From positions 3,472,001 to 3,536,000 of the forward strand of contig NZ_SHKK01000001.1 of the NCBI RefSeq assembly GCF_004217135.1: 64,000 bases of DNA, read 5' to 3'. Both the position numbers and the translations under genes were made by a program. Source of the DNA: Micromonospora violae (GTDB lineage Bacteria > Actinomycetota > Actinomycetes > Mycobacteriales > Micromonosporaceae). Shown here in pieces: positions 5,863-47,102 of the stretch. The notes beneath the pieces are model-generated. The model searched no databases. It was not told the DNA's origin and worked only from the letters and a program-made list of their open reading frames with translations. Position 1 is the first letter of the stretch; every line of letters starts with the position of its first letter.

Positions 5863-5901
5863 CCCCCCCCCCCGCCCCCGTCCCCCGGGACTCGCCCCCT
5901 C

Positions 5902-5986
5902 CCCGGGTCGATCATGGAGTTGTGGTGGGCGTTATGTCCGGGATCACGACTTTTGTGAGGCACCACAACTCCTTGATCGACCCGGG
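5902..5986. repeat. Dispersed palindrome R1 (GATC-ended, GTTGTGGTG type)
   Basis: Arms 5902-5927 and 5961-5986 pair over 26 positions with one mismatch; the core is TCGATCATGGAGTTGTGGTG. The loop is 33 nt. It lies between convergent murL and the PucR regulator, with an 11-C run and other C tracts to the left and G-rich sequence to the right. Same family as R2, R4 and R5. Confidence 0.9.
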
Positions 5987-6034
5987 AAGGGGTGAGGGCT
6001 GGGGTGGGGTCGGGCTGAGGGCGGGGTGGGGGTG

Positions 6035-7891
6035 TTAGGGGGTGCGGACTGCTTCTAGGGCCAGGAGGGCTACGTGGAGGGACAGGCTGGCCTCCACCGA
6101 GTCGAGGTCCACGTCGAGGATGCGGGCGATGCGGGCCAGGCGTTCGTAGAAGGCCGGCCGGGACAGGTGGGCGGCGGCGGCAGCGGCGGACTTGTTGCGC
6201 CCCTGCTCCAGGTAGGCGCGCAGGGTGTCGAGCAGCCGCTCCCGGGGGTGCCGGGCGTCGTACTCCAGCAGGGCGCCGAGTTCACGCTCCACGAATGTCT
6301 GTAGCCGGGGCTCGTCGCGCAGCAGGTGCAGCAGCCCGGCCAGACCGACGTGCGGTAGCCGGAAGATCGGCAGGTCGCGCCGGTCACGGCGGGCCGCCTC
6401 GGCGATCTGCCGCGCCTCGACCAGCGACCGGCGGGCCTCCCGCAGGGTGCCCACCCCGGACCCGGCGGCAATGATCACGGCACCCGGACCAGCGCCCCTC
6501 GAACCGTCGACCCCCGCCCGGGCGGCCTCGACCGCGAACCCCGCGCGCGCGGGATCGGCCCCGAGGAGGGAACGGGAGGACTCGGAGCGGGAGGACTCGG
6601 AGCGGGCCGGGTCGACGCCGGAAGCAGCCCGAGCTGGTTCGGCACCGGGACCGGTCCGGCCGGTGCCGGCGTCGAGGCGTACCCGACGAAGTGCGCTGGC
6701 GAACGCGGACAGCGCGCGGTCCTCGGCGGCCGGGTCGGGTAGGGCCAGCAGCACGCCCACCGAATTGTCGTCGACGGCGCTGGTCAGCGCGGTCAGCTTC
6801 GCCTCCCGCAGGGCCTGACCGACGGCTTCGGAGAGGTCCCGCAGCCGGGCCTGGCCGGCCTCGGGGCCGATCTCCCCGGCGGGGTCGTCGGCGCGGTGGC
6901 GGACCATCACGCCGACCAGGTGCCGCCGGTCGAGCACCACGCCGAGCGCCTTGGCCCGTAGCCCCACCTCGTCCACCGGGCGGGAGTGGTCGAGCAGCGC
7001 GGTGAGCAGGGTGCGGTGGATCTGCCGTTCCAGGCCCTCGGCGTCGCGGCGGATCAGCCGGCCCAGGGCCAGGGTGGACGCGGCCCGCTCGATCAGGATG
7101 GTGAGCCGGGTGGGCGAGTCGGCGGTCGGTGGGACGGAGCGGGCGCTGGGCACGTCCCCGCTGGCCGGCCAGCGCAGCAGCAGCCGCCCCCAGTCCTGTC
7201 CCCGGGCGCCGACGGTGGTCACCAGCCAGCCGCTGTCCGGGTCGTACGCGGTCCGCCCGGCGGGGCGAATCCGTCGGGAGTGCTGCTCCCAGCCGTCCAG
7301 CAGCAGCTCGGCGCTCTCCCCCGCCGGGTCGTACCCGAGCACCTGCCGGGACAGGTTCTCCAGCACCACCGGGCAACCGGACAGCTCGGCGGTCTGTCGG
7401 ATCACCTCCGCGGCGTCGGCACCCTCGACCGAGAGGTCGTTGAACCGCTGGTGGATCTCCTCGGTGGCGCGCAACTCGGTGAGCTGCGCGTCGACGATCA
7501 GCGCGTGCACCGCCTCGGTGATCGGGACGAACGGGGTGGCCCGGCGCAGCTCCACCAGCGGCAGCCCGCGCCGCTCGGCGGCGGCGACCATCACCCGGGG
7601 CACCCCGCTGACGTACCGGCGGCCCAGCTCGACGACGAGTCCGGAGACGCCGACGTCGGCGAGATCGCCGATGAACGCGCGCAACCCGGCGTCGTCACCG
7701 GGCAGGCCGATGCCGGTGGTGAGCACCAGCTCGCCGCCGCCGAGCAGAGTGGCGATGTCCGGCACCTCGGCGATGTGCACCCAGCGGACGGGTCGGTCCA
7801 GCCCGTCGTCGCCGGCCACCACGCGCGGGGCGCCGTGGCGGACGGGGTCCAGGGCCAAAACCTCACGGACGGTAGGGAACACGGCCGCCAC
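6035..7891 (-). CDS. PucR-family transcriptional regulator
   Basis: The N-terminal half carries the PucR domain (FPTVREVLALDPVR, then VRWVHIAEVPDIATLLGGGELVLTTG), the middle a GGDEF-like CdaR region, and the last ~60 residues the PucR helix-turn-helix (LLDTLRAYLEQGRNKSAAA...HLSRPAFYERLARI). Such proteins sense small metabolites such as purines or nitrogen compounds. The start is uncertain: GTG 7891 follows AGGG and sits just before the conserved FPTVREVL; ATG 7921 or 8044 would add 10 or 51 residues. A low-complexity insert near the centre (SESSRSESSRS) comes from a short DNA duplication. The divergent neighbour is a secreted serine hydrolase, a plausible but unproven target. Confidence 0.85.
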   Translation of the reverse strand: MAAVFPTVREVLALDPVRHGAPRVVAGDDGLDRPVRWVHIAEVPDIATLLGGGELVLTTGIGLPGDDAGLRAFIGDLADVGVSGLVVELGRRYVSGVPRVMVAAAERRGLPLVELRRATPFVPITEAVHALIVDAQLTELRATEEIHQRFNDLSVEGADAAEVIRQTAELSGCPVVLENLSRQVLGYDPAGESAELLLDGWEQHSRRIRPAGRTAYDPDSGWLVTTVGARGQDWGRLLLRWPASGDVPSARSVPPTADSPTRLTILIERAASTLALGRLIRRDAEGLERQIHRTLLTALLDHSRPVDEVGLRAKALGVVLDRRHLVGVMVRHRADDPAGEIGPEAGQARLRDLSEAVGQALREAKLTALTSAVDDNSVGVLLALPDPAAEDRALSAFASALRRVRLDAGTGRTGPGAEPARAASGVDPARSESSRSESSRSLLGADPARAGFAVEAARAGVDGSRGAGPGAVIIAAGSGVGTLREARRSLVEARQIAEAARRDRRDLPIFRLPHVGLAGLLHLLRDEPRLQTFVERELGALLEYDARHPRERLLDTLRAYLEQGRNKSAAAAAAHLSRPAFYERLARIARILDVDLDSVEASLSLHVALLALEAVRTP

Positions 7892-8059
7892 GCTACCCTG
7901 CGTGACCCCGAATTCGACCATCACGTCCGCCGGCACGCCCGCGCCGCCACCGCCGAAAGCGCCGGCGTCGACAGCCGCCGGACGGTACGACTCGCCCCCA
8001 CCCAAACGATCTTCTCCAGTAGCGTGCCCTGTGTTCGTGATCAAAACGGAAGGACGGGC

Positions 8060-9328
8060 ATGGACGGGATGAAGGTCAGTCGCAGGGCGTTCGGAAAACT
8101 GGTAGGTGCCGCCGGCGCGGGAACTCTGGTAGGTGCCGCCGGCGTCGGGCTGCCGGCCGCCGCCGCCACCTGGACCGCCACCGGGACGGCGGTCACCGCC
8201 CTGCGCTCCTTCGACGACACGATGAAGAGCTTCATGCAGGCGCGGGGGATCTCCGCCGGGCAGCTCGCGGTGACCTATCAGGGCCGGCTCGTGCTCGCCC
8301 GCGGTTACGGCAACAACTCACCGGAGACGATCCAGCCGACGTCACTGTTCCGGGTGGCCAGCCTGTCGAAGTCGCTGACGGCGGCGGCGGTCGTCCGGCT
8401 CGCCCAGGACGGCAAGCTGACCATGGGCGACTCGATCGCCAAGCACATCGATCTCACCCCGCCGGCCGGGCAGGCCGTGGACCCGCGTCTGCCGCAGGTC
8501 ACGATGTGGCGCCTGCTGCAGCACACCAGCGGTTGGGACCGGACCCAGACGGCGTTCGACCCACTGTTCAAGGATCGGATCATCTCGCAGGCGCTGGGCG
8601 TGCCGATGGAGTTGTACCACAAGGACGTCATCCGGTTCATGAACGGACAGCCGCTGATCCACAACCCCGGCTCGACGGTCTCCTACAGCAACTACGGCTA
8701 CCTGCTGGCCGGCCGGGTCATCGAGGCGGCCAGCGGCCTGCCGTACGAGACGTACGTGAAGCAGAAGCTGCTCGCCCCACTGAAGATCACCCGGATGGCG
8801 AGCGGCTGGACCATCGCCCGGCACAGCGGCGAGGTGGGCTACCGCTCGCAGTACAGCGGGCCGACCGTCCTGGACGGCTCGGGCGCGACGGTGCCGGCGC
8901 CGTACGGCAGTTTCAGCATGCGCCTGCAGGACGCGAACGGAGGCTGGATCGCGTCCGCCGTCGACCTGGTCCGCTGGGCCTCGGCCTTCGACACCGGCAG
9001 CACAGTGCTCAACGCCACCGCGCTCAACCGGGTCTTCGCGGTGCCGACCGTCGGGGTCAACCCCGACGGCTGGTACTACGGCCTGGGCTGGCAGGTCCGG
9101 CCGGTCAGCGGTGGCACCGGCCGCAACACCTGGCACACCGGCAGCATGCCCGGCACCTACAGCCTCCTGGTGCGCACCTACCACGGGATGAGCTGGGCGG
9201 TGGTCTTCAACCAGCGCGACGACCCGTCCGGGCTCAGCTACGGCGCCATCGACTCGGCACTGTGGACCGCCTCCCGGGCGGTGACCAGCTGGCCGTCGCA
9301 CAACCTCTGGTCGACGTACTTCGCCTGA
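8060..9328 (+). CDS. Tat-exported serine hydrolase, beta-lactamase/DD-peptidase fold
   Basis: 422 residues from ATG 8060 (AAGGA upstream). The N terminus SRRAFGK followed by a small-residue hydrophobic stretch and AAAA is a twin-arginine signal peptide. Class C beta-lactamase/DD-peptidase signatures are in order: SLSK (S101, K104), Y209-S-N211 and H359-T-G361. Expected role: an extracytoplasmic serine hydrolase acting on peptidoglycan peptides, beta-lactams or esters; the exact substrate cannot be read from sequence. It is divergent from the PucR regulator and ends in front of a strong bidirectional terminator. Confidence 0.88.
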   Translation: MDGMKVSRRAFGKLVGAAGAGTLVGAAGVGLPAAAATWTATGTAVTALRSFDDTMKSFMQARGISAGQLAVTYQGRLVLARGYGNNSPETIQPTSLFRVASLSKSLTAAAVVRLAQDGKLTMGDSIAKHIDLTPPAGQAVDPRLPQVTMWRLLQHTSGWDRTQTAFDPLFKDRIISQALGVPMELYHKDVIRFMNGQPLIHNPGSTVSYSNYGYLLAGRVIEAASGLPYETYVKQKLLAPLKITRMASGWTIARHSGEVGYRSQYSGPTVLDGSGATVPAPYGSFSMRLQDANGGWIASAVDLVRWASAFDTGSTVLNATALNRVFAVPTVGVNPDGWYYGLGWQVRPVSGGTGRNTWHTGSMPGTYSLLVRTYHGMSWAVVFNQRDDPSGLSYGAIDSALWTASRAVTSWPSHNLWSTYFA

Positions 9329-9354
9329 CCCCCCAGCAGCCGCTGACGTGTCCT

Positions 9355-9385
9355 ACCGGGTCGCGCCGTTCGGGCGCGACCCGGT
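9355..9385. terminator. Bidirectional terminator between serine hydrolase and argG
   Basis: A perfect 13-bp stem (ACCGGGTCGCGCC) closes a 5-nt loop. It sits between two convergent genes, 26 bases past the first stop. No T run follows, as is common for actinobacterial terminators. Confidence 0.75.
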
Positions 9386-9402
9386 GCCTGACGGTGTTGC
9401 GT

Positions 9403-11723
<2,321 letters not shown>

Positions 11724-11842
11724 CCGACGATTCTGCCGGACGCGCCGCGTCGCGCTCCGACACCCGCTCAGCGAGGTGTTTTGTCCGGAGAAGAACGGGA
11801 ATGACCGGCCGAGCATCGGACTCGACGGGAAGGACAAGCCAG

Positions 11843-13690
11843 GTGAGCGCAGACCACACGGCCCCGGACGAAACGGGTGCTCTGCCCCGACGTCCGACCG
11901 TCGCCGACCACATCGTGTCGCGACTGTTCAGCTGGGGCGTACACCGCTACTTCGGCTACCCCGGCGACGGCATCAACGGCATGACCTCGGCGCTGCAACG
12001 CACCAACGGGCGGGCCCAGTTCATCCAGGTCCGCCACGAGGAGACCGCCGGCTTCGCCGCCTCCGCGCACGTCAAGTACGGCGGCGGCCCGCTGGGCTGC
12101 GCGCTGGTCACCAGCGGTCCGGGCGCCATCCACCTGCTCAACGGCCTGTACGACGCGAAGCTCGACCACCAACCGGTGATCGCCCTGGTCGGGCACACCG
12201 CGACCACCGCCGAGGGCGGCGGCTACTACCAGGAGGTCGACCTGCTCGCCCTCTACAAGGACGTGGCCGCCGCGTTCCTCGCCCAACTCGACAACCCGGC
12301 GCAGGTCCGCCACCTCATCGACCGGGCCTGCCGGACGGCGCTGGCCCGGCGTACCGTCACCGCCCTGGTCCTCCCCCTGGACATCCAGGACGAGCCGGCC
12401 GTCCCGAACCCGCCGCACGCCCACGGCTACTACCAGACCAGCAACACGCCGAGCACCACGCCGACGGTGCCCCCGGAGGCGGACGTACGCCGGGCGGCCG
12501 AGGTGCTGCGCGGCGGGCAGCGGGTGGCCATGCTGGTCGGGCAGGGCGCGCTCGGCGCGCGCGACGAGGTCCGCGAGATCGCCGACCGGCTCGGGGCCGG
12601 CGTGGCCACCGCGCTGCTCGGCTTCACCGCCGTCGACCACCGTGAGCCGTGGGTGACCGGCGCGATCGGACTGCTCGGCACCCGACCCAGCTGGCAGCTG
12701 ATGAGCGGCTGCGACCGGCTGCTGATCGTGGGCAGCAACATGCCGTACTCGGAGTTCTACCCGCCACCCGGGCAGGCCCGCGCGGTGCAGATCGACCTGG
12801 ACGGCACCCAGCTCGGGCTGCGCTACCCCACCGAGGTGAACCTGACCGGCGACGCCCGCCCCACGCTGCGCGCGCTGCTGAACGAACTGGGCCCCGGCCC
12901 AGGGCCGACCGCCTGGCGGGCGGAGATCGCCGAGGCCACCTCGGCGTGGCGCCGGGTGCAACACGACCTGGCCGAGCAGACCGCCGACCCGGTCAACCCG
13001 CAATTGCTCTTCCACACCCTCAACGAGCGGCTACCCGACGACGTGCTGCTCGCCGTCGACTGTGGCACCACCACCGCCTGGTACGCCCGACACATCCAGG
13101 TCCGCCCCGGGATGCTGGCCAGCCTCTCCGGCACGCTGCTGTCCATGGGCGGCGCCATGCCGTACGCGCTGAGCGCCAAGTTCGCCCACCCGGACCGACC
13201 ACTGGTCGCGCTCATCGGCGACGGGGCCATGCAGATGAACGGCGTCAACGAACTGATCACCGTGGCGAAGTACTGGCGCAGCTGGGCCGACCCGCGCTTC
13301 GTGGTGCTGGTGCTCAACAACCGCGACCTGGCGTTCGTCAGCTGGGAACAGCGCTCCACCGAAGGAACGCCGATGTTCCCGGACAGCCAGCAGTTGCCGG
13401 ACATCGGCTACCACCAGTGGGCGGAGGTGCTCGGACTGCACGGCGAGCTGATCGACTCACCGGAGCAGGTACGCGACGTCTGGGACCGGGCGCTCACCGC
13501 CGACCGGCCCGTGGTGATCAACGCCCTGGTCGACCCGGCCGAGCTGATGTTGCCACCGCACTTCACCGTCGAACAGGCCCGCAAGACCGCGGCGGCGGTG
13601 CTGCGCGGCGACACCGACTGGGCCGGCATCATCCGCCGAGGCATCCCCGCGACCCTGACCAGCTACCGCCCCCGCCGCCGCGACCGCTAA
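11843..13690 (+). CDS. ThDP-dependent enzyme, pyruvate oxidase/acetolactate-synthase-like
   Basis: 615 residues from GTG 11843 (GGAAGGA upstream; ATG 11801 is a possible earlier start). The thiamine-diphosphate enzyme layout is clear: N-terminal pyrimidine-binding domain with the catalytic Glu in QVRHEETAGFAASAHVKY, a central domain, and a C-terminal PP domain with GDGAMQMNGVNELITVAKYW ending at LVLNN, the GDG-x-NN cofactor motif. GVHRYFGYPGDGINGM points to the PoxB-like (pyruvate dehydrogenase, quinone) branch rather than biosynthetic IlvB, and no IlvN subunit is next to it. Likely it decarboxylates pyruvate or a related 2-oxo acid; the substrate is not certain. Confidence 0.85.
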   Translation: MSADHTAPDETGALPRRPTVADHIVSRLFSWGVHRYFGYPGDGINGMTSALQRTNGRAQFIQVRHEETAGFAASAHVKYGGGPLGCALVTSGPGAIHLLNGLYDAKLDHQPVIALVGHTATTAEGGGYYQEVDLLALYKDVAAAFLAQLDNPAQVRHLIDRACRTALARRTVTALVLPLDIQDEPAVPNPPHAHGYYQTSNTPSTTPTVPPEADVRRAAEVLRGGQRVAMLVGQGALGARDEVREIADRLGAGVATALLGFTAVDHREPWVTGAIGLLGTRPSWQLMSGCDRLLIVGSNMPYSEFYPPPGQARAVQIDLDGTQLGLRYPTEVNLTGDARPTLRALLNELGPGPGPTAWRAEIAEATSAWRRVQHDLAEQTADPVNPQLLFHTLNERLPDDVLLAVDCGTTTAWYARHIQVRPGMLASLSGTLLSMGGAMPYALSAKFAHPDRPLVALIGDGAMQMNGVNELITVAKYWRSWADPRFVVLVLNNRDLAFVSWEQRSTEGTPMFPDSQQLPDIGYHQWAEVLGLHGELIDSPEQVRDVWDRALTADRPVVINALVDPAELMLPPHFTVEQARKTAAAVLRGDTDWAGIIRRGIPATLTSYRPRRRDR

Positions 13691-13753
13691 CGCCCCGCCC
13701 CGCCGGCTCTCCGGCCCGCCCGGCCCTCCGGCCCCGGCCCCACCACCCCTACT

Positions 13754-13832
13754 CCGTCGATCATGGAGTTGTGGTGGTGGATGAAAGCCCCGCGCAGTCA
13801 CATAACGGGCACCACAAGTCCATGATCGACGG
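13754..13832. repeat. Dispersed palindrome R2
   Basis: Arms 13754-13776 and 13810-13832 pair with one mismatch over 23 positions (CGTCGATCATGGAGTTGTGGTG core). The loop is 33 nt. Convergent intergenic site, C-rich to the left and a long G-run series to the right. The reverse complement of its loop shares CGTTATGT with R1. Confidence 0.9.
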
Positions 13833-13901
13833 GGCGGGGGCGGGGCGGGGCGGGGCGGGCGGGGCGGGCGGGGTGGGTGGGGTGGGTGGGGCGGGGTTGG
13901 G
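13831..13901 (+). repeat. G-tract array next to R2, G-quadruplex capable
   Basis: About seventy bases of GGGG/GGG runs separated by single C or T bases, lying between palindrome R2 and the stop codon of the penicillin-binding protein. On the plus strand it could form G-quadruplexes. No coding content. Confidence 0.7.
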
Positions 13902-13902
13902 T

Positions 13903-16092
13903 TTAGCCTCGGCGGTTTAGCCAGCGGTCCAGGGGCGACTCGGGGTCGTCGTTCTGGTTCTGCGGGACCGTTGGGCGTTCGACCGGGCGGTGCGGGTTGC
14001 CGACCAGGTCGTGGCTCGGCGCGACGAACGCCTTCTCCGGCTGGCCCTTCACCGCGGTGGCGATGACCCGGGCGACCGCGTCGATCACCTTGGTCTGCAC
14101 CGCCGACCCCACCGAGTCGGCCGGGTCGTCCGGGTTGGCGGCGATACCGGCGACCGCGACCTGCGGGGTGAAGCCGACGAACGTCTCGGTGGAGTTCTGC
14201 TCCGAGCTACCCGTCTTACCCGCCACCGGCCGGCCGTCGAGGATGTCGTTCACGCCGGTGGCGGTGCCGCCGTTGCACTGCCCGAACGCGGACTGCTGGC
14301 CCACCGGGCAGCGCGCCGCGTCGGTCGCGGCACGGGCGACGTCCGGGTCGAGAACCCGCTTGCAGGAGGGCTGCCCGACCGGCACCTTCGTGCCGTCCGC
14401 GCCGGTCACCGAGACCACCGGCACCGGAGTGCAGTAGGTGCCCTCGGCGGCCACCGTGGCGTACGCGTTGGCCAGATCGAGGGGGGTGGTGGCGGCCACG
14501 CCGAGGGTGAACGAACCCCAGTTCCTGGCGTCGTTCTTGGCGAAGGCGGCGTCCGAGTCGGCGCGGAAGGTGATGCCGAGCCGCTGCGCCATCTCGACCA
14601 CCTTGTCCTGGCCGACCTGCTCGGCCAACCAGACGAAGTAGGTGTTCACCGAGCGGCCGAAGCCGTCCCACATCATCCGGTACCCGTCCATCCAGTCCGG
14701 GTTGGCGTTCGCCGGGCACCAGTGGCCGTCACAGCTACCCGGCCCTTCGGCGGCGTACCGGGTGGGTAGCTTGGCGGGCGCGTCGAAACCGGTGGAGAGG
14801 GTACGACCCGACTCCAGCGCGGCGAGCATGGTGAACATTTTGAACGTCGAACCCGCCTGGTACCCGTCGACGCTGGCGCCACCGGAGATCAACGGGTTGA
14901 CGGTGTTCGGGTAGTTCGCCTGCCCGGCCGGGTTGTCGGCCAGGCTGTAGTGCCGGTTGACCGCCATCGCCAACACCCGCCCGGTGCCCGGCTGCACCGC
15001 CGCGATCGGCAGGGCGCGCTTGTTGTCGTACCCGTAGACCTTGGTTGCCTGCTGCTGCGCGGTGGCCTGGATCTTCGGGTCCAGCGAGGTGACCACGGTG
15101 TAGCCGCCCGAGCGCAGCGCCTGCTCGCGCTCCGCGACGGTGGCCCCGAACGCCGGCTGGGTCAGCCACCACTGACGCAGGTAGTCACAGAAGTAGCCCC
15201 AGTCGTCGTGGCCCTGGGAGACCGCGGTGCAGCCGTTGGGCTGCGGGGTGGGGTGCAGGGCCAGCGGCTCCGCCTTGGCCTGGGCGGCCTGCGCGGCGGT
15301 GATCGCGTTGGTGGCGACCATCGAGTCGAGCACGTACGACCGGCGCGCCAGCGCCTCGTCCTTGTCCCCGCTGATCGGGCTGTACGCGTCCGGGGACTGC
15401 ACCAGACCGGCCAGCAGGGCCGCCTCGCCGAGGGTCAACTGCGCCGGAGGCTTGCCGAAGTACCGCTGACTGGCCGCCGCGATCCCGTACGCGCCGGAGC
15501 CGAAGTAGGCGATGTTCAGATAGCGGTCGAGGATCTCGTCCTTGCCGAGGCTCTTGTCCAGCGCGCTCGCGTACCGGATCTCCTGGATCTTGCGGCCCAC
15601 CGTGGGGTCGGTCGCGGCGGCGCGCTCCTCGGCGGTGCGGGTGGGGTCGGTCTTCAGCACGTTACGGACGTACTGCATGGTCAGCGTCGAGCCGCCCTGC
15701 TCGGTGCCGCCGCCCTTGACGTTGGCCACCAGTGCCCGGGCGAGGCCGCGCAGGTCCGCGCCGCCGTGGTCGTAGAAGCGCCGGTCCTCGGCCGCGACGA
15801 TCGCCTGCCGCATGACCGGGGCGATCTCCGACAACGGGACGTCGGTGCGGTTCACGTCGTAGAACGTGGTGATCAGCGTCTTGCCGTCGTTGGCGTAGAG
15901 GTACGAACGCTGCGGCGTCGCGGGAGTCTTCAGCGAGGCGGGCAACGCGGCATACGACCCGAGCGCCGAGCGGGCACTGAGCCCGAGCAGCAGGTTGCCG
16001 GGTAGCGCGGCGACAGCCAGGACGAGCCCGGCCAACACGCCGGCGAACAGCACGGTGAACAGCCGCGACAGCGGCGAGCGGGGGGCGGCCAT
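13903..16092 (-). CDS. Class A penicillin-binding protein (glycosyltransferase-transpeptidase)
   Basis: Bifunctional peptidoglycan synthase of 729 residues. It polymerises lipid II and cross-links the stem peptides outside the membrane. One N-terminal membrane anchor (residues 10-36); GT51 domain with EDRRFYDHGG (102-111, catalytic Glu) and GGSTLTMQ (133-140); transpeptidase domain with STFK (S415 nucleophile), SVN (481-483) and KTGSS (626-630). Cysteines near 288-302, 454-459 and 554-606 may form disulfides. ATG 16092 is preferred over an upstream TTG. The gene is flanked by palindromes R2 downstream and R3 upstream. Confidence 0.95.
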   Translation of the reverse strand: MAAPRSPLSRLFTVLFAGVLAGLVLAVAALPGNLLLGLSARSALGSYAALPASLKTPATPQRSYLYANDGKTLITTFYDVNRTDVPLSEIAPVMRQAIVAAEDRRFYDHGGADLRGLARALVANVKGGGTEQGGSTLTMQYVRNVLKTDPTRTAEERAAATDPTVGRKIQEIRYASALDKSLGKDEILDRYLNIAYFGSGAYGIAAASQRYFGKPPAQLTLGEAALLAGLVQSPDAYSPISGDKDEALARRSYVLDSMVATNAITAAQAAQAKAEPLALHPTPQPNGCTAVSQGHDDWGYFCDYLRQWWLTQPAFGATVAEREQALRSGGYTVVTSLDPKIQATAQQQATKVYGYDNKRALPIAAVQPGTGRVLAMAVNRHYSLADNPAGQANYPNTVNPLISGGASVDGYQAGSTFKMFTMLAALESGRTLSTGFDAPAKLPTRYAAEGPGSCDGHWCPANANPDWMDGYRMMWDGFGRSVNTYFVWLAEQVGQDKVVEMAQRLGITFRADSDAAFAKNDARNWGSFTLGVAATTPLDLANAYATVAAEGTYCTPVPVVSVTGADGTKVPVGQPSCKRVLDPDVARAATDAARCPVGQQSAFGQCNGGTATGVNDILDGRPVAGKTGSSEQNSTETFVGFTPQVAVAGIAANPDDPADSVGSAVQTKVIDAVARVIATAVKGQPEKAFVAPSHDLVGNPHRPVERPTVPQNQNDDPESPLDRWLNRRG

Positions 16093-16235
16093 GCAACCCA
16101 GGATTGCCACAAAAACCGCCAACCGACCACCCTCAGAGCCCGATTGTCACCAACTTCACGGCCCCCCACCAGCCAACCCCCAGCCCCGCTCCCCGCTCCC
16201 CCGCTCCCCCCGCCCCCGCCCCCGCCCCCGCTCCC

Positions 16236-16306
16236 GCTCCGGTGATCATGGGGTTAGCGGGAGGTTTGATCACGGAATCGCCCGTCAACCTCATGATCAC
16301 CGGAGC
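16236..16306. repeat. Dispersed palindrome R3 (diverged)
   Basis: Arms 16236-16261 and 16281-16306 match at 23 of 26 positions (GCTCCGGTGATCATG core); the loop is 19 nt and contains another TGATCA. It lies between two minus-strand genes. Left flank strongly C-rich, right flank G-rich. It shares GATCATG with the R1 family but not the GTTGTGG part. Confidence 0.8.
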
Positions 16307-16325
16307 TGGCCGAAGGCCGGGGTGG

Positions 16326-16352
16326 TTAGGGGTTAGGGGTTAGGGGTTGGGG
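16326..16352 (+). repeat. TTAGGGG heptamer repeat (telomere-like) over a stop codon
   Basis: TTAGGGG occurs three times head to tail at 16326, 16333 and 16340, followed by TTGGGG. The TAA stop of the membrane-protein gene on the minus strand falls inside the second unit, so the array forms the last codons and the downstream side of that gene. Confidence 0.8.
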
Positions 16353-17106
16353 TGCTGAGGCTGGCGCTGGCGGCGTCTCTGGCGGTTTCGCGGGGCATCA
16401 GGCGCCCGGAGCGGTAGCCGATGCCGATGCCGGCGATCAGTACGAAGATCGCACCGAACGTCTGCAACGAGCCGATCAGGGCACCGCCGAGGCCGAGCAG
16501 CGGCGCGGCGATGATCAACATGACGCCGTCGCCAAGGCTGAAGGTGCCCGAGCGGGCCACCGCCCACCCGGTGAGGAACCAGCCCGCGCTGTAGAACGTC
16601 GCGCCGACCAGGACCAGCGACCGCGCGGTGGCGCCGAAGACCGGCGTCTGCTCCTCGAGCCCGGCGAACGGCAGCATGAGCACGGTGCCGGCGATGCTGA
16701 CCAGCAGCCCGGCGGCGGCCACCCGGCGACTGCGGGTCGCGGCCAGTAGCCCGGTGAGGGCCAGCAACGCGAGCAGGCCGAGCCAGACCGCGGCCACCCA
16801 ACCGATCAGGTACACCGCCTGGCCGTCGGCCGGATAGGGGTCGTTGCCCACCCCGCCGTCGCTGGCCATCGCCACCGCGCCGTAGAGGATGGCGTACGCG
16901 GGCAGCAGCCAGACCGCCGCCCGCGCGAACCGACGTACCGACCAGGCCCAGCTGGCGTTCGTGGCGGGAGCCCCCGGGGTCGGCTCTCCGACGAAGGGCA
17001 GTACGCCGAACCCGCCACCGCTGCGCCGAGTGCCCAGCGGGGCGATCGGGTCGTGCGCGCCGGGCACCGGGGCCGAGGACCACATCCGATTCGCCGGATC
17101 CTTCAT
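16333..17106 (-). CDS. Hypothetical integral membrane protein
   Basis: 257 residues from ATG 17106 with GAGGTGACGC directly upstream. A proline/glycine-rich cytoplasmic N terminus of ~55 residues is followed by five or six hydrophobic helices (about 65-83, 98-122, 130-147, 160-180, 190-205 and 210-225) and a basic tail. I do not recognise a characterised family. The extreme C terminus (TPTPNP) is encoded by heptamer repeats, so it is unlikely to be functionally constrained. It precedes the penicillin-binding protein in the same direction, but ~240 bases and palindrome R3 separate them. Confidence 0.7.
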   Translation of the reverse strand: MKDPANRMWSSAPVPGAHDPIAPLGTRRSGGGFGVLPFVGEPTPGAPATNASWAWSVRRFARAAVWLLPAYAILYGAVAMASDGGVGNDPYPADGQAVYLIGWVAAVWLGLLALLALTGLLAATRSRRVAAAGLLVSIAGTVLMLPFAGLEEQTPVFGATARSLVLVGATFYSAGWFLTGWAVARSGTFSLGDGVMLIIAAPLLGLGGALIGSLQTFGAIFVLIAGIGIGYRSGRLMPRETARDAASASLSTPTPNP

Positions 17107-17257
17107 GCGTCACCTCGCTCGTCGACGAACGGTGCGGGACGCGCCGGGGCGCCCCGATTGCCTGGTCACCACCCGTCCTAGGACCGATCGTGGCAGGCGT
17201 CGGAGCGCCCCATGAGTCTTTCTCGCTTTTATCCGGCCGGGCGGCCGGCGTACGGGA

Positions 17258-18364
17258 TCAGCCGCGCTCGCGCTGGTCGGCCGGGTCCTCGACGAGGCTG
17301 GTCGGCGACACCGGCTCCGGCGCGGGCAGCCCCTGCGGCTTGTTGCCGCCGGTGGCCTGCGCCTCGGCGACGCGTACCTCGTCGTGGATCTGCTGGGCGG
17401 CGTCCGCCGCGGCCTGGGCCGCCTCCGCGGCCTCGCGCTCGACCTGGCTCGCGTGGTCCGCTGCCTCCGGTGCGGGCATGTCCCCCACCATCTGGCTCAG
17501 CCCGCCGAGCGCGCCACCCATCCCCTCCAGGGCCTTGGTCAGCTCGGCCGGGACGATCCAGACCTTGTTGGCGCTGCCCTGGGCGATCTGCGGGAGAGCC
17601 TGCAGGTACTGGTAGGCGAGCACCTTCTGGCTCGGGTTGGCCTGGTGGATCGCGTCGAAGACCGTCCGGATCGCCTTCGCCTGACCCTCGGCCTGCAGGA
17701 TACGGGCCTGCCGGTCACCGTCGGCCCGCAGCACCGCCGACTGCTTCTCACCCTCGGCGGTGAGGATCTGCGCCTGCTTGTGCCCCTCGGCGGTCAGGAT
17801 CGCCGCCCGGCGGTCCCGCTCGGCGCGCATCTGCTTCTCCATCGAGTCGCGGATGCTGGCCGGCGGCTCGATCGCCTTGATCTCGACCCGGGTCACCTTG
17901 ATGCCCCACCGGCCGGTGGTCTCGTCCAGCACACCCGAGAGGTGCCGGTTGATCTCGTCGCGGCTGGTCAGCGCCCGCTCCAGGTCGAGCGAACCGATCA
18001 CGTTACGCAATGTGGTGACGGTCAACTGCTCGATGGCCTGGAGGAAGCTGGAGATCTCGTAGGTCGCCCGGACCGAGTCGACCACCTTGAAGTAGAGAAC
18101 CGTGTCGATCGAGACGACCAGGTTGTCGGAGGTGATCACCGGCTGCGGCGGGAAGCTGACCACCTGCTCCCGCATGTCGACCTTGGTCCGAACCGCGTCG
18201 ACGAACGGCACCAGCAGGTTGAGGCCGGGGTTCAGGGTGCGCTTGTACTTGCCGAGCCGTTCCACCACGTCCTGGCGCTGCTGCGGCACGATCCGCAGCG
18301 CCTTGGCTAGCGTAATCACGGCGATCAACGCCACCGCGATGATCAGCACACCGATGACCGTCAT
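17258..18364 (-). CDS. SPFH/Band 7 (stomatin-like) membrane protein
   Basis: 368 residues from ATG 18364, preceded by GAGGGTGAACGG. One N-terminal membrane helix (residues 3-20), then the SPFH domain (RIVPQQRQDVVERLGKYKRT ... GLNLLVPFVD ... VDMREQVVSFPPQPVITSDN), a coiled coil rich in AEG/EKQ (about residues 195-255) and an Ala-rich C-terminal tail. Proteins of this type form ring-like membrane scaffolds linked to membrane microdomains. It starts four bases after the NfeD-type gene ends, the usual paired arrangement. Confidence 0.92.
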   Translation of the reverse strand: MTVIGVLIIAVALIAVITLAKALRIVPQQRQDVVERLGKYKRTLNPGLNLLVPFVDAVRTKVDMREQVVSFPPQPVITSDNLVVSIDTVLYFKVVDSVRATYEISSFLQAIEQLTVTTLRNVIGSLDLERALTSRDEINRHLSGVLDETTGRWGIKVTRVEIKAIEPPASIRDSMEKQMRAERDRRAAILTAEGHKQAQILTAEGEKQSAVLRADGDRQARILQAEGQAKAIRTVFDAIHQANPSQKVLAYQYLQALPQIAQGSANKVWIVPAELTKALEGMGGALGGLSQMVGDMPAPEAADHASQVEREAAEAAQAAADAAQQIHDEVRVAEAQATGGNKPQGLPAPEPVSPTSLVEDPADQRERG

Positions 18365-18368
18365 CCGT

Positions 18369-18842
18369 TCACCCTCTCGCTTCCGGCAACTCGCCGGCGG
18401 AAGAAACATCGTCCTGCCACACCAGGGCTGTCGCGCCCCGGACCTTTATCACCCGAACCCGTTGACCGGGCTCGAAAGTCTGCGTCGTGTCGTACGGCCG
18501 GGCCGTCCACAACTCACCGTCGATCTTGACCAAACCGTGCTCGGCGTCCACCCGTTCCAACACCAGAGCGGTGGCGCCCTCGAGAGCCTCCACACCGAAC
18601 GGCTGCTCGCCGCTCTCCAGGGCCGAGCGACTGTGCCGTCGGATGACCGGTCGGACCACCACCAGGCTCAACGCCGACACCACCGCGAAGACCAGCGCCT
18701 GCACGGCGACCGGCGCACCCAGCGCGGCCGCACCGGCGGCGGCGAACGCACCGACCCCAAACATGATCAAGAATAGCGTCGTCGTGAAAATCTCGGCGAC
18801 GGCCAGCAGCACACCCAAAACGATCCACACCACGGCGTCCAC
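18369..18842 (-). CDS. NfeD-family membrane protein, partner of the SPFH protein
   Basis: 157 residues from GTG 18842. Three membrane helices in the first ~65 residues (VVWIVLGVLLAVAEIFTTTL, FGVGAFAAAGAAAL, VQALVFAVVSALSLVVV), then a cytosolic OB-fold domain (GATALVLERVDAEHGLVKIDGELWTAR ... GQRVRVIKVRGATALV). This is the short NfeD form without a protease domain, nearly always encoded beside a stomatin-like gene, as here. Role: membrane-domain organisation together with the SPFH protein. It is first in the operon and divergent from a serine hydrolase gene. Confidence 0.92.
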   Translation of the reverse strand: MDAVVWIVLGVLLAVAEIFTTTLFLIMFGVGAFAAAGAAALGAPVAVQALVFAVVSALSLVVVRPVIRRHSRSALESGEQPFGVEALEGATALVLERVDAEHGLVKIDGELWTARPYDTTQTFEPGQRVRVIKVRGATALVWQDDVSSAGELPEARG

Positions 18843-18961
18843 GCCACAATCCTGACACGTAAACGCACGCGCGACCGCCCCGCAAGATCAGTAAGCTCGG
18901 GCGAGGCCCTGCCCGTCCCGCCAGAACGCCACGAATCGGCGGCCGACCCGAGGAGATCCCG

Positions 18962-20263
18962 GTGACCCTGCTACCCGAGACCGCCCGACAGATCGACACT
19001 CGGGTCGCCCAGGCACAAGCCGACGGTCACGCCCCGTCGCTGGTGCTGGGCGTGGTTCGCGACGGCGCGCTGGCGCACGTGGCCGCCGCCGGCGAGCACC
19101 CCCGCCCGGACGTCGACCTGCAGTACCGGGTGGGCTCGATCAGCAAGACGATGACCGCCACCCTGATCATGCAGTTACGCGACGCCGGCCTACTGGCCCT
19201 CGACGACCGGCTGGAGCAGCACCTGCCGGGCACCGGCGTGGGCGCGCTCACCCTGCGCCAACTGCTCGGCCACGCCAGCGGCATGCAACGCGAACCCGAG
19301 GGCGACTGGTGGGAGCGGGCGGCGGGCGTCGACCTGCCCACCCTGCTCGCCGGGGTCGACGCCAACAAGATCGCCTACCCGCCGCACCGCGCGTACCACT
19401 ACTCCAACCTGGCGTACGGGCTGCTCGGCGGGCTACTCGAACGGCTCACCGGGAAGCCCTGGGCCGACCTGCTCGACGAACGGATCCTCACCCCGCTGGG
19501 CCTGCACCGCACCACCTACGCCGCCACCGAGCCGTACGCCCGTGGCTACGTCGTCCACCCCTGGCACCACACGTTGCGCGAGGAACCCCGTACCGACACC
19601 GGCGCGATGGCCCCCGCCGGGCAACTCTGGTCGACGATCGAGGACCTGGGCCGCTGGGCCGCCTTCCTGGCCGACCCCGACCCGTCGGTACTGGCCGCCG
19701 AGACGCTCACCGAAATGTGCGCGCCCGTGGTGATCAGTGATCTCGACTCCTGGAGCGAGGGGCACGGCCTGGGACTGGAGCTCTACCGCGACGGCGAACG
19801 CGTGTACGTCGGGCACGGCGGCTCGATGCCCGGGTACGTGGCATCCCTCGTGGTGCACCGGCCCACCCGAACCGCGGTGGTCGGCTTCGCCAACTCGTAC
19901 GGCTTTCCGATCACCCGGCTCAGCCGAAGGCTGCTGACCACCGTGCTGGACGCCGAGCCGGCGTTCCCCCCGCCGTGGCGGCCCGCCACCGCCGCGCCCG
20001 CGACCGAACTGGCCGAGCTGACCGGCCGCTGGTGGTGGATGGGCATTCCGCTGGACCTGACCTGGGACGCGGGTGACCTGGTCGCCCACGTACGCGGTGA
20101 GCGGGTCAGCCGGTTCACGGCCGAGGGGACGGACCGCTGGCGGGGACACTCGGGCCCGGAGAACGGCGAGATCCTGTCGGTGCTGCGCGACGACAGCGGA
20201 CGGGCGACGGCGGTCGACATCGCCACGTTCGTCTTCACGCGCAGCCCCGACGAGGCCCCCTGA
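18962..20263 (+). CDS. Serine hydrolase, beta-lactamase family, cytoplasmic
   Basis: 433 residues from GTG 18962, preceded by GAGGAGATCCCG. Catalytic pattern: SISK (S59, K62), Y147-S-N149 and a late HGGSMPG. Unlike the gene at 8060 there is no signal peptide, so the enzyme should stay in the cytoplasm. The last ~90 residues form a lipocalin-like beta domain (LAELTGRWWWMG...LDLTWDAGDLVAHVRG) seen in some EstB/D-aminopeptidase relatives. Substrate unknown; esterase or peptidase activity is most likely. It ends at a strong hairpin shared with the convergent neighbour. Confidence 0.87.
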   Translation: MTLLPETARQIDTRVAQAQADGHAPSLVLGVVRDGALAHVAAAGEHPRPDVDLQYRVGSISKTMTATLIMQLRDAGLLALDDRLEQHLPGTGVGALTLRQLLGHASGMQREPEGDWWERAAGVDLPTLLAGVDANKIAYPPHRAYHYSNLAYGLLGGLLERLTGKPWADLLDERILTPLGLHRTTYAATEPYARGYVVHPWHHTLREEPRTDTGAMAPAGQLWSTIEDLGRWAAFLADPDPSVLAAETLTEMCAPVVISDLDSWSEGHGLGLELYRDGERVYVGHGGSMPGYVASLVVHRPTRTAVVGFANSYGFPITRLSRRLLTTVLDAEPAFPPPWRPATAAPATELAELTGRWWWMGIPLDLTWDAGDLVAHVRGERVSRFTAEGTDRWRGHSGPENGEILSVLRDDSGRATAVDIATFVFTRSPDEAP

Positions 20264-20274
20264 CCCACCGCTGA

Positions 20275-20311
20275 ACCGAGCCGGCCGACCAGGTGGTCAG
20301 GCCGGCTCGGT
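20275..20311. terminator. Bidirectional terminator overlapping the end of the DUF3097 gene
   Basis: A perfect 12-bp stem (ACCGAGCCGGCC) continues through GACC/GGTC to an AGGT loop, with one bulged A. It begins 12 bases after the serine hydrolase stop and runs into the last codons of the opposing gene, so both transcripts would read through it. Confidence 0.75.
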
Positions 20312-21118
20312 GACGAAGTCGATGAGGCGTTCCATGGCGTTGATCAGGGGCGTCTCCACGTCGGCGAAGCTGTTCACCCGGGACAGGATGTGCCGCCACA
20401 TGTCGGCCGGCTCGGCCACCCCGAGGGCCGCGCAGACCCCTTCCTTCCACGGCTGCCCCGGCGGCACCACCGGCCACGCCGCGATGCCCAACGCCGCCGG
20501 CTTGACCGCCTGCCACACGTCCACGTAGGGGTGCCCGGTCACCAGCACGTGCGGGGAGTTCACCCGGGCCACGATCCGGCTCTCCTTGCTGCCCGGCACC
20601 AGGTGGTCGACGAGCACGCCGAGGCGTCGGGTCGGGCCGGGGCCGAAGTCGCGTACCTCGGCGTCGAGCGCGTCGATGCCGTCCAACGGCTCCACCACCA
20701 CGCCCTCGATACGCAGGTCGTCACCCCAGATCCGCTCGACCAGGGCGGCGTCGTGGATGCCCTCCACCCAGATCCGGCTGGCCTTCGCCACCTGGGCGCG
20801 GACGTTGTCCACCGCCACCGAACCCGACGCGGTCCGCCGCCGGGCCGCCGGCACCGGCGCGCGGGTGGGGCGGCGCAGCGTGACCGGGCTGCCGTCGAGG
20901 AGGAACGCCGCCGGCAGCAGCGGGAAGTTGCGCCGCTTACCGTGCCGGTCCTCCAGCACCACGGCACCGGCCTCGAAGCTCACCACCGCTCCGCAGAACC
21001 CGGAGTCGGCGTCCTCGACCACGAGGTCCGGTTCGGCGTCCACCTCGGGGGTGACCTTGCGCCGCCGCCAGTCGCCCGCCAACACGTCCTCGCCGTATCG
21101 CCCCGCCATGTCGATCAC
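20297..21118 (-). CDS. DUF3097 family protein
   Basis: 273 residues. GTG 21118 is chosen because GCGAGG stands at proper spacing; ATG 21109 is an alternative. The sequence has a beta-rich N-terminal part (VVSFEAGAVVLEDRHGKRRNFPL) and a C-terminal region with RIWVEGIHDAALVERIWGDDLR, VLVDHLVPGSKESRIV and VLVTGHPYVDVWQAVKP. The last part resembles a toprim/nuclease-like fold, consistent with the uncharacterised actinobacterial DUF3097 family. No active-site function can be claimed. It is divergent from the gene at 21450, with palindrome R4 in the gap. Confidence 0.8.
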   Translation of the reverse strand: MIDMAGRYGEDVLAGDWRRRKVTPEVDAEPDLVVEDADSGFCGAVVSFEAGAVVLEDRHGKRRNFPLLPAAFLLDGSPVTLRRPTRAPVPAARRRTASGSVAVDNVRAQVAKASRIWVEGIHDAALVERIWGDDLRIEGVVVEPLDGIDALDAEVRDFGPGPTRRLGVLVDHLVPGSKESRIVARVNSPHVLVTGHPYVDVWQAVKPAALGIAAWPVVPPGQPWKEGVCAALGVAEPADMWRHILSRVNSFADVETPLINAMERLIDFVTEPA

Positions 21119-21449
21119 GCTAAACCTCGCCCGCCCCCACCCCACCCCCGACACACCGCCCCGCCCCCACCCGCCGCCCGCCCACCGCCCCGCCGCCCGT
21201 CGCCCGCCCGCCACCCGCCCGCCACCCGCCACCCGCCCGCAGGCGTCGATCATGCAGTTGTGGTGCGTCACGAAACGGCTCCAATCGGCACCTTTCGCCC
21301 ACCACGACTCCATGATCGACCAGGGCGGTGGGCGCGGAGACGCCAAGGGACGCCGGACAGGATTGGGGCGAAGGGGGCAGTTGGTGGCAGGTCGGGCGAC
21401 CGGAGCGGCAGTCGAGACAGGGCCGGTCGTGACCACGTACCCTTTCGGC
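21119..21449. other. Intergenic region with C-rich tract and palindrome R4
   Basis: Between two divergent genes. 21130-21240 is an almost pure C/G/A tract made of CCCGCC, CACCCGCC and similar short repeats. Palindrome R4 follows at 21245-21320, then about 130 bases that must hold the promoter of the gene at 21450. No RNA gene seen. Confidence 0.6.
21245..21320. repeat. Dispersed palindrome R4
   Basis: Arms 21245-21265 and 21300-21320 pair with two mismatches over 21 positions (GTCGATCATG...GTGGTG). The loop is 34 nt. Unlike its relatives it lies between divergent genes. Confidence 0.85.
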
Positions 21450-22244
21450 ATGTCCACCCCCGCAACGGGCGCGGTCACGCTCGCGCCGCGCCGGTCCAGC
21501 CGGTTCGTTGCCTGGGTGCGCGCGTGGCGTGCCGGGTTGGTGCCGTACGACGAGGTTGCCGACGCCATCGCCGGCGACGAGGAACATCTCGTCGCGGACG
21601 CCCCGGGCACCTGGACCGACGTCCCGCTGGGCGCCGCGCTGCCCACCCTGGCCAAGCTCTCCCCGGACGAGATCCGCCTGGTGCTGCCCGCGCCGGGTGA
21701 CCCCCGGGGTCTACCCGGCCCCGGCGACTTCGCGGGGGCGGCGCTGGTCACGGGCGAGGCGGTGGTCGCCGGCGGGCTCGGGTTGATCCCCGAGGTGCGC
21801 TCGCACACCTCCGGCTCCGGGGACTGTTTCGAGACGGTGCTGTGGCGCGTCTACCCACTGCCGGCCAACGCCCCCGCCGCGTCCCTCTCGTTGCCGGGCG
21901 CCGCCGAGGCAGAGGCCGAGCTGGCCGCCGCGCTGGCCGAGACGACCGCCGCGCTGACCCGCCTCGACGTGGCCCAGTGGCGGCCCGAGCTGGCCGGCGC
22001 GCTGGCCGCGCTACGCCGCCCCGACGGCACCACCGACCTGCCGCCGGGCTTCGACCCGCGCGCCCGGCGGCTCTTCGCCCGGGCCGCGGTGCTCGACCGG
22101 GTGCTCGCGTTGGCCGGGCACTCCGCGCCCGGCGGGGCGATCAACAACTACGAGGCGCAGCAACGGGACGCGGCCCTTCGTCCGCTGACCGCCGCCTGCC
22201 GGCAGGCCCTGGTGGCCGCCTGCAACGCCCCCCTGCGCCCCTGA
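21450..22244 (+). CDS. Conserved hypothetical protein (264 aa)
   Basis: Starts at ATG 21450 (no strong ribosome-binding site). The protein is soluble, acidic, Ala/Leu-rich and has no signal peptide. It shows a well-ordered N-terminal half (FVAWVRAWRAGLVPYDEVADAI, LAKLSPDEIRLVLPAPGDPRGLPG, ALVTGEAVVAGGLGLIPEV) and a helical C-terminal half (about 150-260). I do not recognise a characterised family. Codon-position GC is strongly coding-like, so the gene is real. It is divergent from the DUF3097 gene and convergent with the HAD phosphatase gene. Function unknown. Confidence 0.7.
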   Translation: MSTPATGAVTLAPRRSSRFVAWVRAWRAGLVPYDEVADAIAGDEEHLVADAPGTWTDVPLGAALPTLAKLSPDEIRLVLPAPGDPRGLPGPGDFAGAALVTGEAVVAGGLGLIPEVRSHTSGSGDCFETVLWRVYPLPANAPAASLSLPGAAEAEAELAAALAETTAALTRLDVAQWRPELAGALAALRRPDGTTDLPPGFDPRARRLFARAAVLDRVLALAGHSAPGGAINNYEAQQRDAALRPLTAACRQALVAACNAPLRP

Positions 22245-22341
22245 CCGGAACCTCGCCCGCGATCATCGCCAGCCCGCAGGTACTCCTTGGCATACCGGCC
22301 AACCACCGACTCTCCGGCGCGAGAGGGGCAGGTCCGGCCTT

Positions 22342-22416
22342 GTCGATCAAGGAGTTGTGGTGCCCGCTTTGGCATTCGGCGGGTTTTTTGTCACCCACCA
22401 CAACTCCATGATCGGC
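22342..22416. repeat. Dispersed palindrome R5
   Basis: Arms 22342-22362 and 22396-22416 pair with two mismatches over 21 positions (GATCAAGGAGTTGTGGTG type). The 33-nt loop itself holds CCCGC...GCGGG followed by TTTTTT, the look of a small intrinsic terminator. Located between convergent genes. Confidence 0.88.
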
Positions 22417-22486
22417 GGGGGCGATCGACGGGGCGAGGCCGGGCTCGGCGAGGCCGGACGGGGCGGGATGACGAACAGCAGCGCCG

Positions 22487-23266
22487 TCAGATCTCGTCGA
22501 GCAGGTCCGCGACCGAGTTGACGATCCGGGACGGCCGGTACGGGTACCGCTCCGCCTCGGTGCGGCTGCTGATCCCGGTGAGCACCAGGATGGTCTCCAA
22601 CCCGGCCTCCAGGCCGCACAGGATGTCGGTGTCCATCCGGTCACCGATCATCGCGGTGCTCTCCGAGTGCGCGTTGATGGTGTTGAGCGCCGAACGCATC
22701 ATCATCGGGTTGGGCTTGCCGACGAAGTACGGCTCCACCCCGGTCGCCTTGGAGATCATGGCGGCGACCGAGCCGGCGGCGGGTAGCGCGCCCTCCACGG
22801 ACGGGCCGGTCACGTCGGGGTTGGTGCAGATGAACCGGGCACCGTCGTTGATCAGCCGGACCGCCTTGGTGATCGCCTCGAAACTGTAGGTGCGGGTCTC
22901 GCCGAGCACCACGTAGTCGGGAGCGAAGTCGGTCAGCACGTAGCCGACGGCGTGCAGCGCCGTGGTCAGCCCGGCCTCACCGATGACGTACGCGGTGCCA
23001 CCCGGCCGCTGGTCGGCGAGGAACTGACCGGTGGCGAGGGCGGAGGACCAGATCGACTCCTCCGGCACGTCCAGCCCCATCCGGCTGAGCCGGGCGGTCA
23101 GGTCACGCGGGGTGTAGATCGAGTTGTTGGTCAGCACCAGGAACGGCTTGCCCGAGGCGCGCATCCGGTTGATGAACTCCGGCGCGCCGGGCACCGGCTG
23201 GCCCTCGTGCACCAGCACGCCGTCCATGTCGGTCAGCCAACTCTGCACGGGCTTACGGTCATGCAT
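22487..23266 (-). CDS. HAD-superfamily phosphatase, NagD-like
   Basis: 259 residues from ATG 23266, with GAGG six bases upstream. HAD type IIA layout: motif I TDMDGVL (nucleophile D13, acid D15), motif II in LVLTNNS, a C2 cap domain, and motif III/IV KPNPMMMR...MIGDRMDTDILCGLEAGLETILVLTG. Such enzymes dephosphorylate small phosphate esters (nucleotides, sugar or glycerol phosphates), with Mg; cytoplasmic. It is the last gene of the fabG-fabI-hemH run, 72 bases after the hemH stop, across a short tandem repeat. Confidence 0.9.
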   Translation of the reverse strand: MHDRKPVQSWLTDMDGVLVHEGQPVPGAPEFINRMRASGKPFLVLTNNSIYTPRDLTARLSRMGLDVPEESIWSSALATGQFLADQRPGGTAYVIGEAGLTTALHAVGYVLTDFAPDYVVLGETRTYSFEAITKAVRLINDGARFICTNPDVTGPSVEGALPAAGSVAAMISKATGVEPYFVGKPNPMMMRSALNTINAHSESTAMIGDRMDTDILCGLEAGLETILVLTGISSRTEAERYPYRPSRIVNSVADLLDEI

Positions 23267-23279
23267 GATGATCCTCAAA

Positions 23280-23366
23280 GGTCAGGGGCGCCGGGTCGGC
23301 ACGCACAGGTCAGGGGTGCCGGGTCGGCACGCAACAGGTCAGGGGCGCCGGGTCGGCACGCAACAA
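23280..23366. repeat. Three tandem copies of the hemH 3' end (28-29 bp)
   Basis: GGTCAGGGGCGCCGGGTCGG followed by CACGCA and a short variable tail occurs at about 23280, 23308 and 23337. The rightmost copy is the true 3' end of the ferrochelatase gene including its stop; the other two, read in the same direction, repeat the codons for VPTR-P and a stop in the intergenic gap. Confidence 0.88.
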
Positions 23367-36378: not shown

Positions 36379-36438
36379 CGTTGATCATGAAGTTGTTGCC
36401 CTCCCACGCGGCGTGGGGCGATAACTTCATGATCAACG
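36379..36438. repeat. Dispersed palindrome R6
   Basis: Arms 36379-36401 and 36416-36438 pair with two mismatches over 23 positions (CGTTGATCATGAAGTTGTTG type). The 14-nt loop forms a further CCACGC/GCGTGG stem with neighbouring bases. Located between convergent genes, C-rich left, G-rich right. Confidence 0.88.
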
Positions 36439-42798: not shown

Positions 42799-42854
42799 TG
42801 ATCAAGAGGTTTGCGTCACCGGAACCGCGCCGGATGACGCAAACCTCTTGATCA
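42799..42854. repeat. Dispersed palindrome R7 (perfect)
   Basis: Arms 42799-42818 and 42835-42854 (TGATCAAGAGGTTTGCGTCA) pair perfectly over 20 bases; the 16-nt loop begins CCGG and ends CCGGA, extending the stem. Located between the convergent LPMO and asnB genes. Confidence 0.92.
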
Positions 42855-47044: not shown

Positions 47045-47102
47045 TGGCCGCAAGAGGCCATCCGGCCGTCGCTGCGGGCTAGCAGCCAGGCCGACCCAGC
47101 CG

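Follow-up and report, generated by a model that had tools for sequence, protein, structure and literature searches.

GATC-ended 75-bp palindromes at gene ends of Micromonospora violae, probably copies of a non-autonomous mobile repeat with interchangeable sister families

Analysis of a 64,000-nucleotide stretch (the window, positions 3,472,001 to 3,536,000) of the genome of the soil bacterium Micromonospora violae, which consists of a single contig of 7,139,733 bp, indicated that four GATC-ended palindromes designated R1, R2, R4 and R5 belong to a family of 75-bp palindromes dispersed over the whole genome. The four palindromes are probably copies of a non-autonomous mobile repeat that resembles REPINs, which are hairpin-forming doublets of repetitive extragenic palindromes (REPs), and miniature inverted-repeat transposable elements (MITEs), and the repeat is probably one of several interchangeable sister families. 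This reading draws on the number of copies, their fixed geometry, the one-sided changes in their arms, their placement at the 3' ends of genes, their presence or absence at orthologous sites, the swaps between families and their occurrence in several genera. In Micromonosporaceae, sister families whose arms also end in GATC are found in comparable intergenic slots at the 3' ends of genes.

Alignment of the palindromes R1 (5907..5981, arms 5907-5927 and 5961-5981), R2 (13756..13830, arms 13756-13776 and 13810-13830), R4 (21245..21320, arms 21245-21265 and 21300-21320) and R5 (22342..22416, arms 22342-22362 and 22396-22416) revealed that each of the eight arms differs from the consensus GTCGATCATGGAGTTGTGGTG at one position at most, and that the loops are 33, 33, 34 and 33 nt long, R4 measuring 76 bp and the other three 75 bp. 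Both the near-identical 21-base arm and the loop lengths had been reported in a first-pass annotation of the window and are confirmed here. No match to the arm at three or fewer mismatches was found in 100 shuffles of the window, while at the same threshold the whole genome gave 92 forward and 91 reverse matches and the reversed control 2 and 0. A covariance model trained on 21 copies located at least 88 distinct places in the genome (a few more may exist), to which all figures out of 88 refer; the proposal of one dispersed, copied, non-coding REP- or MITE-like family, for which a covariance-model search had been suggested, is thus upheld.

Each copy has a variable loop between inverted arms of 21 bp that hardly vary, and the arm offset is 54 bp in 77/88 copies; the loop is 33 nt long in 77 copies, 34 nt in seven, 32 nt in three and 35 nt in one. 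Deviations from the arm consensus amounted to 92 in 3,696 positions. Changes in the arms of the 88 copies were one-sided in 82 cases and paired in five, while random re-pairing of the arms predicts 2.7 +/- 1.5 paired changes and yielded five or more in 12.5% of shuffles; the four window copies carry six arm changes, all one-sided and none paired. Since the changes are mostly one-sided and paired changes are not above re-pairing, there is no clear sign of a hairpin kept by compensation, and the earlier statement that paired changes were kept in the arms was not borne out. The one-sided changes concentrate at arm positions 2, 9, 11, 13 and 16. Inspection by eye of the listed perfect arms found none without a partner, all being situated in paired elements. 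The copies are unevenly distributed along the genome, with 3 to 17 per Mb and one gap of 1.04 Mb.

Comparison with the nearest of 24 other genomes tested (G002, gene ends 89-97% identical) revealed that many sites are filled in one genome and not in the other. Both flanks of 39 of the 88 sites were found in the G002 stretches fetched, which comprised six hand-picked sites, nine stretches picked for having a G002 copy and others placed by synteny. Scored by script, nine of these 39 sites carry the 75-bp type in G002, 10 another palindrome, 18 are empty and two are neither, so that 30 are without this type. Correction by eye gave about 14 empty sites, 12 with another palindrome, two with remnants, nine with the 75-bp type and two where nothing was recognised; sites 958878 and 5497807, scored empty, have short CGATCTTGCA palindromes, and sites 4552612 and 5511432, likewise scored empty, have remnants. 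The shared fraction is inflated, since the stretches that contain five of the nine shared sites had been selected for their G002 copy, and shared origin is not assured for four of the nine (1773359, 4435170, 5006285 and, less so, 3920218) because their loops are very different. The flanks of the compared sites are mostly 90-97% identical, with 96 and 97% at 4029706, which is filled only in M. violae. As to the window copies, R1 corresponds in G002 to a decayed relative with a different loop, R4 is absent, R5 is absent from a gap of 26 bp there versus 242 bp here, and the R2 region contains a 9-kb difference between the two genomes. By eye, all five sites fetched from another genome (G004) were without the 75-bp type. 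Empty sites exist in relatives, and the genome has at least 88 copies, so that neither of the findings named in the first-pass annotation as counting against a copied family (no further copies, or identical positions in all relatives with no empty sites) was obtained. Between orthologous copies, 4/168 arm and 17/132 loop positions were changed in four pairs (7/210 and 28/165 when a doubtful fifth pair is included); the sister copies had been chosen by exact arm matches, so slower evolution of the arms than of the loops is not claimed.

A wider set of 79 loci from Micromonospora, Salinispora, Verrucosispora and one further member of Micromonosporaceae was obtained through the class A penicillin-binding protein (PBP) gene beside R2, and the slots of R1, R2, R4 and R5 were inspected for arms in gaps of up to 700 bp. 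R2 lies between the convergent genes of a thiamine pyrophosphate (TPP) enzyme (+) and the PBP (-), where the inter-stop gap is 212 bp here versus 4-5 bp in five related species (parva, saelicesensis, foliorum, tarensis and parastrephiae), which is most simply explained by a gain in the lineage of M. violae. No two-armed copy was found at the R2 slot in the 21/40 loci with a gap of at most 700 bp, nor any two-armed copy of the 75-bp type at the R5 slot in the 49/53 such loci. The R4 slot contains two-armed copies in 9/54 loci, one of them (L191) of another type, and the diverged R4 copies in several species mark it as an old slot. At the R1 slot 20 of 38 loci match other palindrome families; among the 37 loci with a gap of at most 700 bp a GATCTTGGA-ended variant of the 75-bp type is present in two (L203 and L221), while locus L195 has a single arm and some named loci are without a palindrome. 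At least three palindrome families occupy the slot of R3, a sister-family palindrome, among close species, and some slots have the same loop across species. Species of Micromonospora thus differ in which GATC-ended palindrome they carry at a given slot.

The sister families were recognised by their ends. The window palindromes R3 (16241..16301, GGTGATCATGGGGTTAGCGGG..., situated in the upstream slot of the PBP gene), 36380..36437 (GAAGTTRTTGCC family) and 42800..42853 (GATCAAGAGGTTTGCGTCA family) all have the same GATCAWG ends, with GATC-to-GATC spans of 55 and 52 bp for the first two and a length of 54 bp for the third. One pattern covering these ends matched at least 131 places in the genome, the 75-bp family included, and at least three sister families with GATCAWG ends were distinguished, whose spans are mostly 54 or 55 bp versus 69 bp in the 75-bp family. 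In G002 the R3 copy is the same with one difference, the slot of 36380-36437 contains a 55-bp form, and the palindrome at 42,800 shows one difference. The sister families in the same slots had been missed by the first-pass annotation, as had the oriented loop motif and the C/G-rich wings described below; its copied repeat family is supported, its paired changes are not.

Mosaics were also observed, in which about 20-30 bp separate the 75-bp type from an adjoining CGATCTTGCAC-type palindrome (78124 in M. violae and L275, L276 and L278, which are G002 sites). A scripted search with a strict cut-off for a second palindrome beside the M. violae copies gave 0/88, as against 19 in up to 2,000 control windows; the case at 78124 is visible by eye, which indicates that the count was too strict. 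A further GATC-ended family (CGTGATCCACTCGG...CCGAGTGGATCA, inner part GAAGTCGCG) is present in the window at 46596-46674 and 47101-47181, its copies being 505 bp apart. The 3' end after the PBP stop in L184, L197, L207, L209, L214, L221 and L230, which are loci of other Micromonospora species, carries a different, GGAAGGGCCCCTTCTTAACGCC-like repeat, often as inverted pairs, and a longer inverted repeat (TTTGGAGCTGATGTCGTAAACGAATC and its inverse) stands beside or instead of the palindrome at about 686,500 in G002 and at the R1 slot of L153 and L154.

Searches of other genomes showed a patchy distribution. The exact pattern of the 75-bp type was found in 12/61 genomes (that of M. violae included), all of its own genus, 25 of the 37 genus genomes having no match. 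A shorter pattern matched 18/160 Micromonosporaceae genomes from 8/44 genera and none of the other 142; eight of the 18 had single matches, and the reversed control gave one match in each of four genomes. Three or more copies were found by this pattern in 5/44 genera, the counts being 71 in M. violae, 21 in a congener and, for three genomes from two further genera, 143, 90 and 59; the separate expansions in other genera have their own loop types. In a class sample of 246 genomes, where Micromonosporaceae were represented by Micromonospora only, three matched, namely M. violae, one congener and a single match in another family, and the last is probably due to chance since the reversed control also gave single matches in six genomes of the sample. 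The covariance model gave from 29 to at least 150 matches, on both strands, in 11 carriers (eight of the same genus and three of other genera), three of which were near or at the top.

The gene context, based on our own simple gene caller, was convergent for 47 of the 88 copies, tandem for 33 and divergent for seven, and one copy was scored inside a gene, probably through an error of the gene caller. The 240 background gaps of at least 100 bp in the same regions, filled gaps included, were tandem in 113 cases, divergent in 70 and convergent in 57. In tandem gaps 29/33 copies lie at most 113 bp from the upstream stop, one of these 29 overlapping the stop by 26 bp. Within the window R1 and R5 lie between convergent genes (stops at 5862 and 6035, and at 22244 and 22487, respectively), and R4 precedes a DUF3097 gene in a gap between divergent genes. 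Copies are flanked by 40 bp that are C-rich on the left and 40 bp that are G-rich on the right, alike in convergent, tandem and divergent settings. Such wings occupy 5863..5906 and 5982..6034 at R1, and 13691..13755 (absent at the minimal slots of the relatives) and 13831..13902 (with repetitive GGGGC) at R2. Half-gap skews in convergent gaps were -0.26/+0.23 with the element (n=43) and -0.06/+0.06 without any palindrome (n=17), which indicates that the wings follow the element more than transcription; similar wings without the element are present at the R1 slot of tarensis and MH99. Insertion into pre-existing palindromes was considered and set aside, as pairing of the outer flanks at positions 1-20 was not in excess over re-pairing save for one z of 2.3.

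If the palindromes are mobile repeats, an enzyme supplied in trans would recognise the paired ends, probably as a DNA hairpin, and would copy or paste the unit into non-coding DNA, the direction of movement being likewise conjectural; copies would survive where no promoter is disturbed and might later be lost or replaced. Function as a terminator or protein site is possible as a secondary use. Several observations weigh against such mobility. No mobilising enzyme was found, PF01797, the family of the REP-associated tyrosine transposases (RAYTs), having no match in the M. violae genome. No target duplication and no clean 75-bp insertion was seen at the compared filled and empty sites, because the wings differ between them, and wings of up to about 100 bp per side are gained and lost together with the element. 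Part of the pattern could be due to copies lost from the sister or brought in from other strains. Finally, near-identical recent parent copies are missing from the genome itself.

With regard to the mobiliser, RAYT/IS200 was rejected on the absence of PF01797 from the M. violae genome. This family was also absent from 10/11 genomes of one set, M. violae included, with a single match in the carrier G029, and present in 9/31 genomes of another set, including one match in the carrier G002. Pfam searches of the genes between four close copy pairs detected no transposase; their products are a protein of 165 aa without a match, a DUF559-like protein, a pirin and, in the window, a protein of 235 aa likewise without a match.

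With regard to parent copies, the loop is variable yet oriented, in many copies starting with a GGTGACAAA-like and ending with a CCAAACCAGG-like sequence, and loops of the family carry a GACAAA-type motif in one orientation. Loop positions 1 and 33 are Watson-Crick paired in 12/77 copies versus 39 expected, because both positions are mostly G+G or C+C; genus g66 differs in that its listed loops are mostly CC...GG. For the 30 sites without this type in the sister, the closest loop among the other copies was 85% identical at three sites and 64-79% at 27. The one near-identical pair in the genome lies within a 330-bp tandem duplication (92%) with a palindrome copy in each part (3692960 and 3693907). 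Recent copying from copies still in the genome should leave close loop relatives. Their lack would be explained if the copies came from other strains, if most of the differences are losses in the sister, or if copying alters the loop. The last alternative would make the palindromes a new repeat class with its own mobiliser, copying the 21-bp ends faithfully and renewing or mutating the loop, which we consider conceivable though doubtful; recent copies would then keep near-perfect ends and have no close loop relative, and families would interchange at the gene-end slot.

It appears unlikely that the palindromes are primarily functional 3'-end hairpins, acting as bidirectional terminators or stabilisers of mRNA 3' ends, with shared sequence explained by factor recruitment and mobility secondary. 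It would agree with the position of the copies downstream of stop codons and in convergent gaps, with their very stable hairpins (z -4.9 to -7.2, flanks included) and with the fact that in many species slots R1 and R3 hold a palindrome of some family. However, the arm changes are uncompensated, a hairpin needs no near-identical arm sequence, the C-left/G-right wings occur in tandem and divergent contexts too, and many orthologous slots are without any palindrome. Intrinsic terminators are hairpins after stop codons in which a G+C-rich stem is followed by a U-tract; the 75-bp family shares the position, yet differs in having no U-tract, a sequence common to unrelated genes and a 33-nt loop. A scan of window positions 5500-22900 for U-tract terminators gave one terminator-like site, not at an element, versus 4.1 in shuffles, and in the same interval Rfam gave nothing over the gathering score and eight sub-threshold microRNA-like matches.

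An old family with little or no transposition today, in which differential loss, together with homologous recombination that swaps slots between strains, produces the pattern, is rather improbable. It would account for the absence of near-identical siblings other than the tandem duplicate, for the same loop across species at some slots, for the sister remnants at two sites and for the diverged R4 copies. On the other hand, R2 is absent from five related species at the same minimal spacing, the flanks show no unusual divergence where M. violae alone has the site filled, and other genera have separate expansions with their own loop types. Very unlikely is a selected, operator-like site for a DNA-binding protein of chromosome organisation or segregation, with the loop as spacer: the almost invariant arms, the few positions at which changes are tolerated and the fixed 54-bp offset are in its favour, but slot occupancy changes between genomes whose flanks are mostly conserved, most genus genomes have no exact-pattern match and the copies are unevenly spread.

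As a mobile repeat the family was compared with known systems. In the available text of PMC3116915, REPINs of Pseudomonas, REP doublets that form hairpins and are associated with RAYT transposases, have two conserved inverted ends at a fixed distance with a less conserved spacer, many intergenic copies and several groups per genome, all of which is also seen here. That text reports compensatory arm changes as common, whereas paired changes in the 75-bp family are not above chance; the present genome is without a PF01797 gene, C/G wings are present and there is no GTAG in GTCGATCATGGAGTTGTGGTG or its complement. The family is not filed as a REPIN because of the missing PF01797 gene, GTAG tag and compensation. 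CGTC-tagged REPs, in the part of PMC3733652 available, are likewise palindromic, intergenic and apparently without a dedicated transposase, and some sit within further small palindromes; their tag is unpaired and at one end, while the ends of the 75-bp family are symmetrical and paired. That part makes no mention of Actinobacteria, Micromonospora, Streptomyces, Salinispora or Frankia. As with MITEs (review PMC10969869), the units are short and non-coding with inverted ends and many copies, and presence or absence at orthologous sites was found. No parent insertion sequence or target duplication was identified, and in contrast to MITEs the total length is nearly fixed and the palindrome is mostly its ends. 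The mosaics recall bacterial interspersed mosaic elements (BIMEs; PMC2817692) in placing different palindromes side by side, but there are four cases only and the units are not REPs.

Literature searches gave no description of the family in titles or opening abstract lines of the best matches, among sources other than subscription papers, and the arm sequence strings gave no relevant paper among the matches listed. The REP and REPIN repeats found described, as far as the available texts go, come from other bacterial groups, REPINs being tied to RAYT transposases; here a large multi-family system is present in Micromonospora-group actinobacteria, with no RAYT in M. violae and with family swaps at orthologous slots. 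This system opens two questions to testing, namely which agent moves REP-like palindromes and whether they sit at gene ends because they function there or because they are merely tolerated. It is also of practical use for the annotation of 3' ends and for understanding how Micromonospora genomes vary. Downstream of R5, window positions 23277-23362 contain three tandem repeats of a unit of about 29 bp (ACAGGTCAGGGGCGCCGGGTCGGCACGCA).

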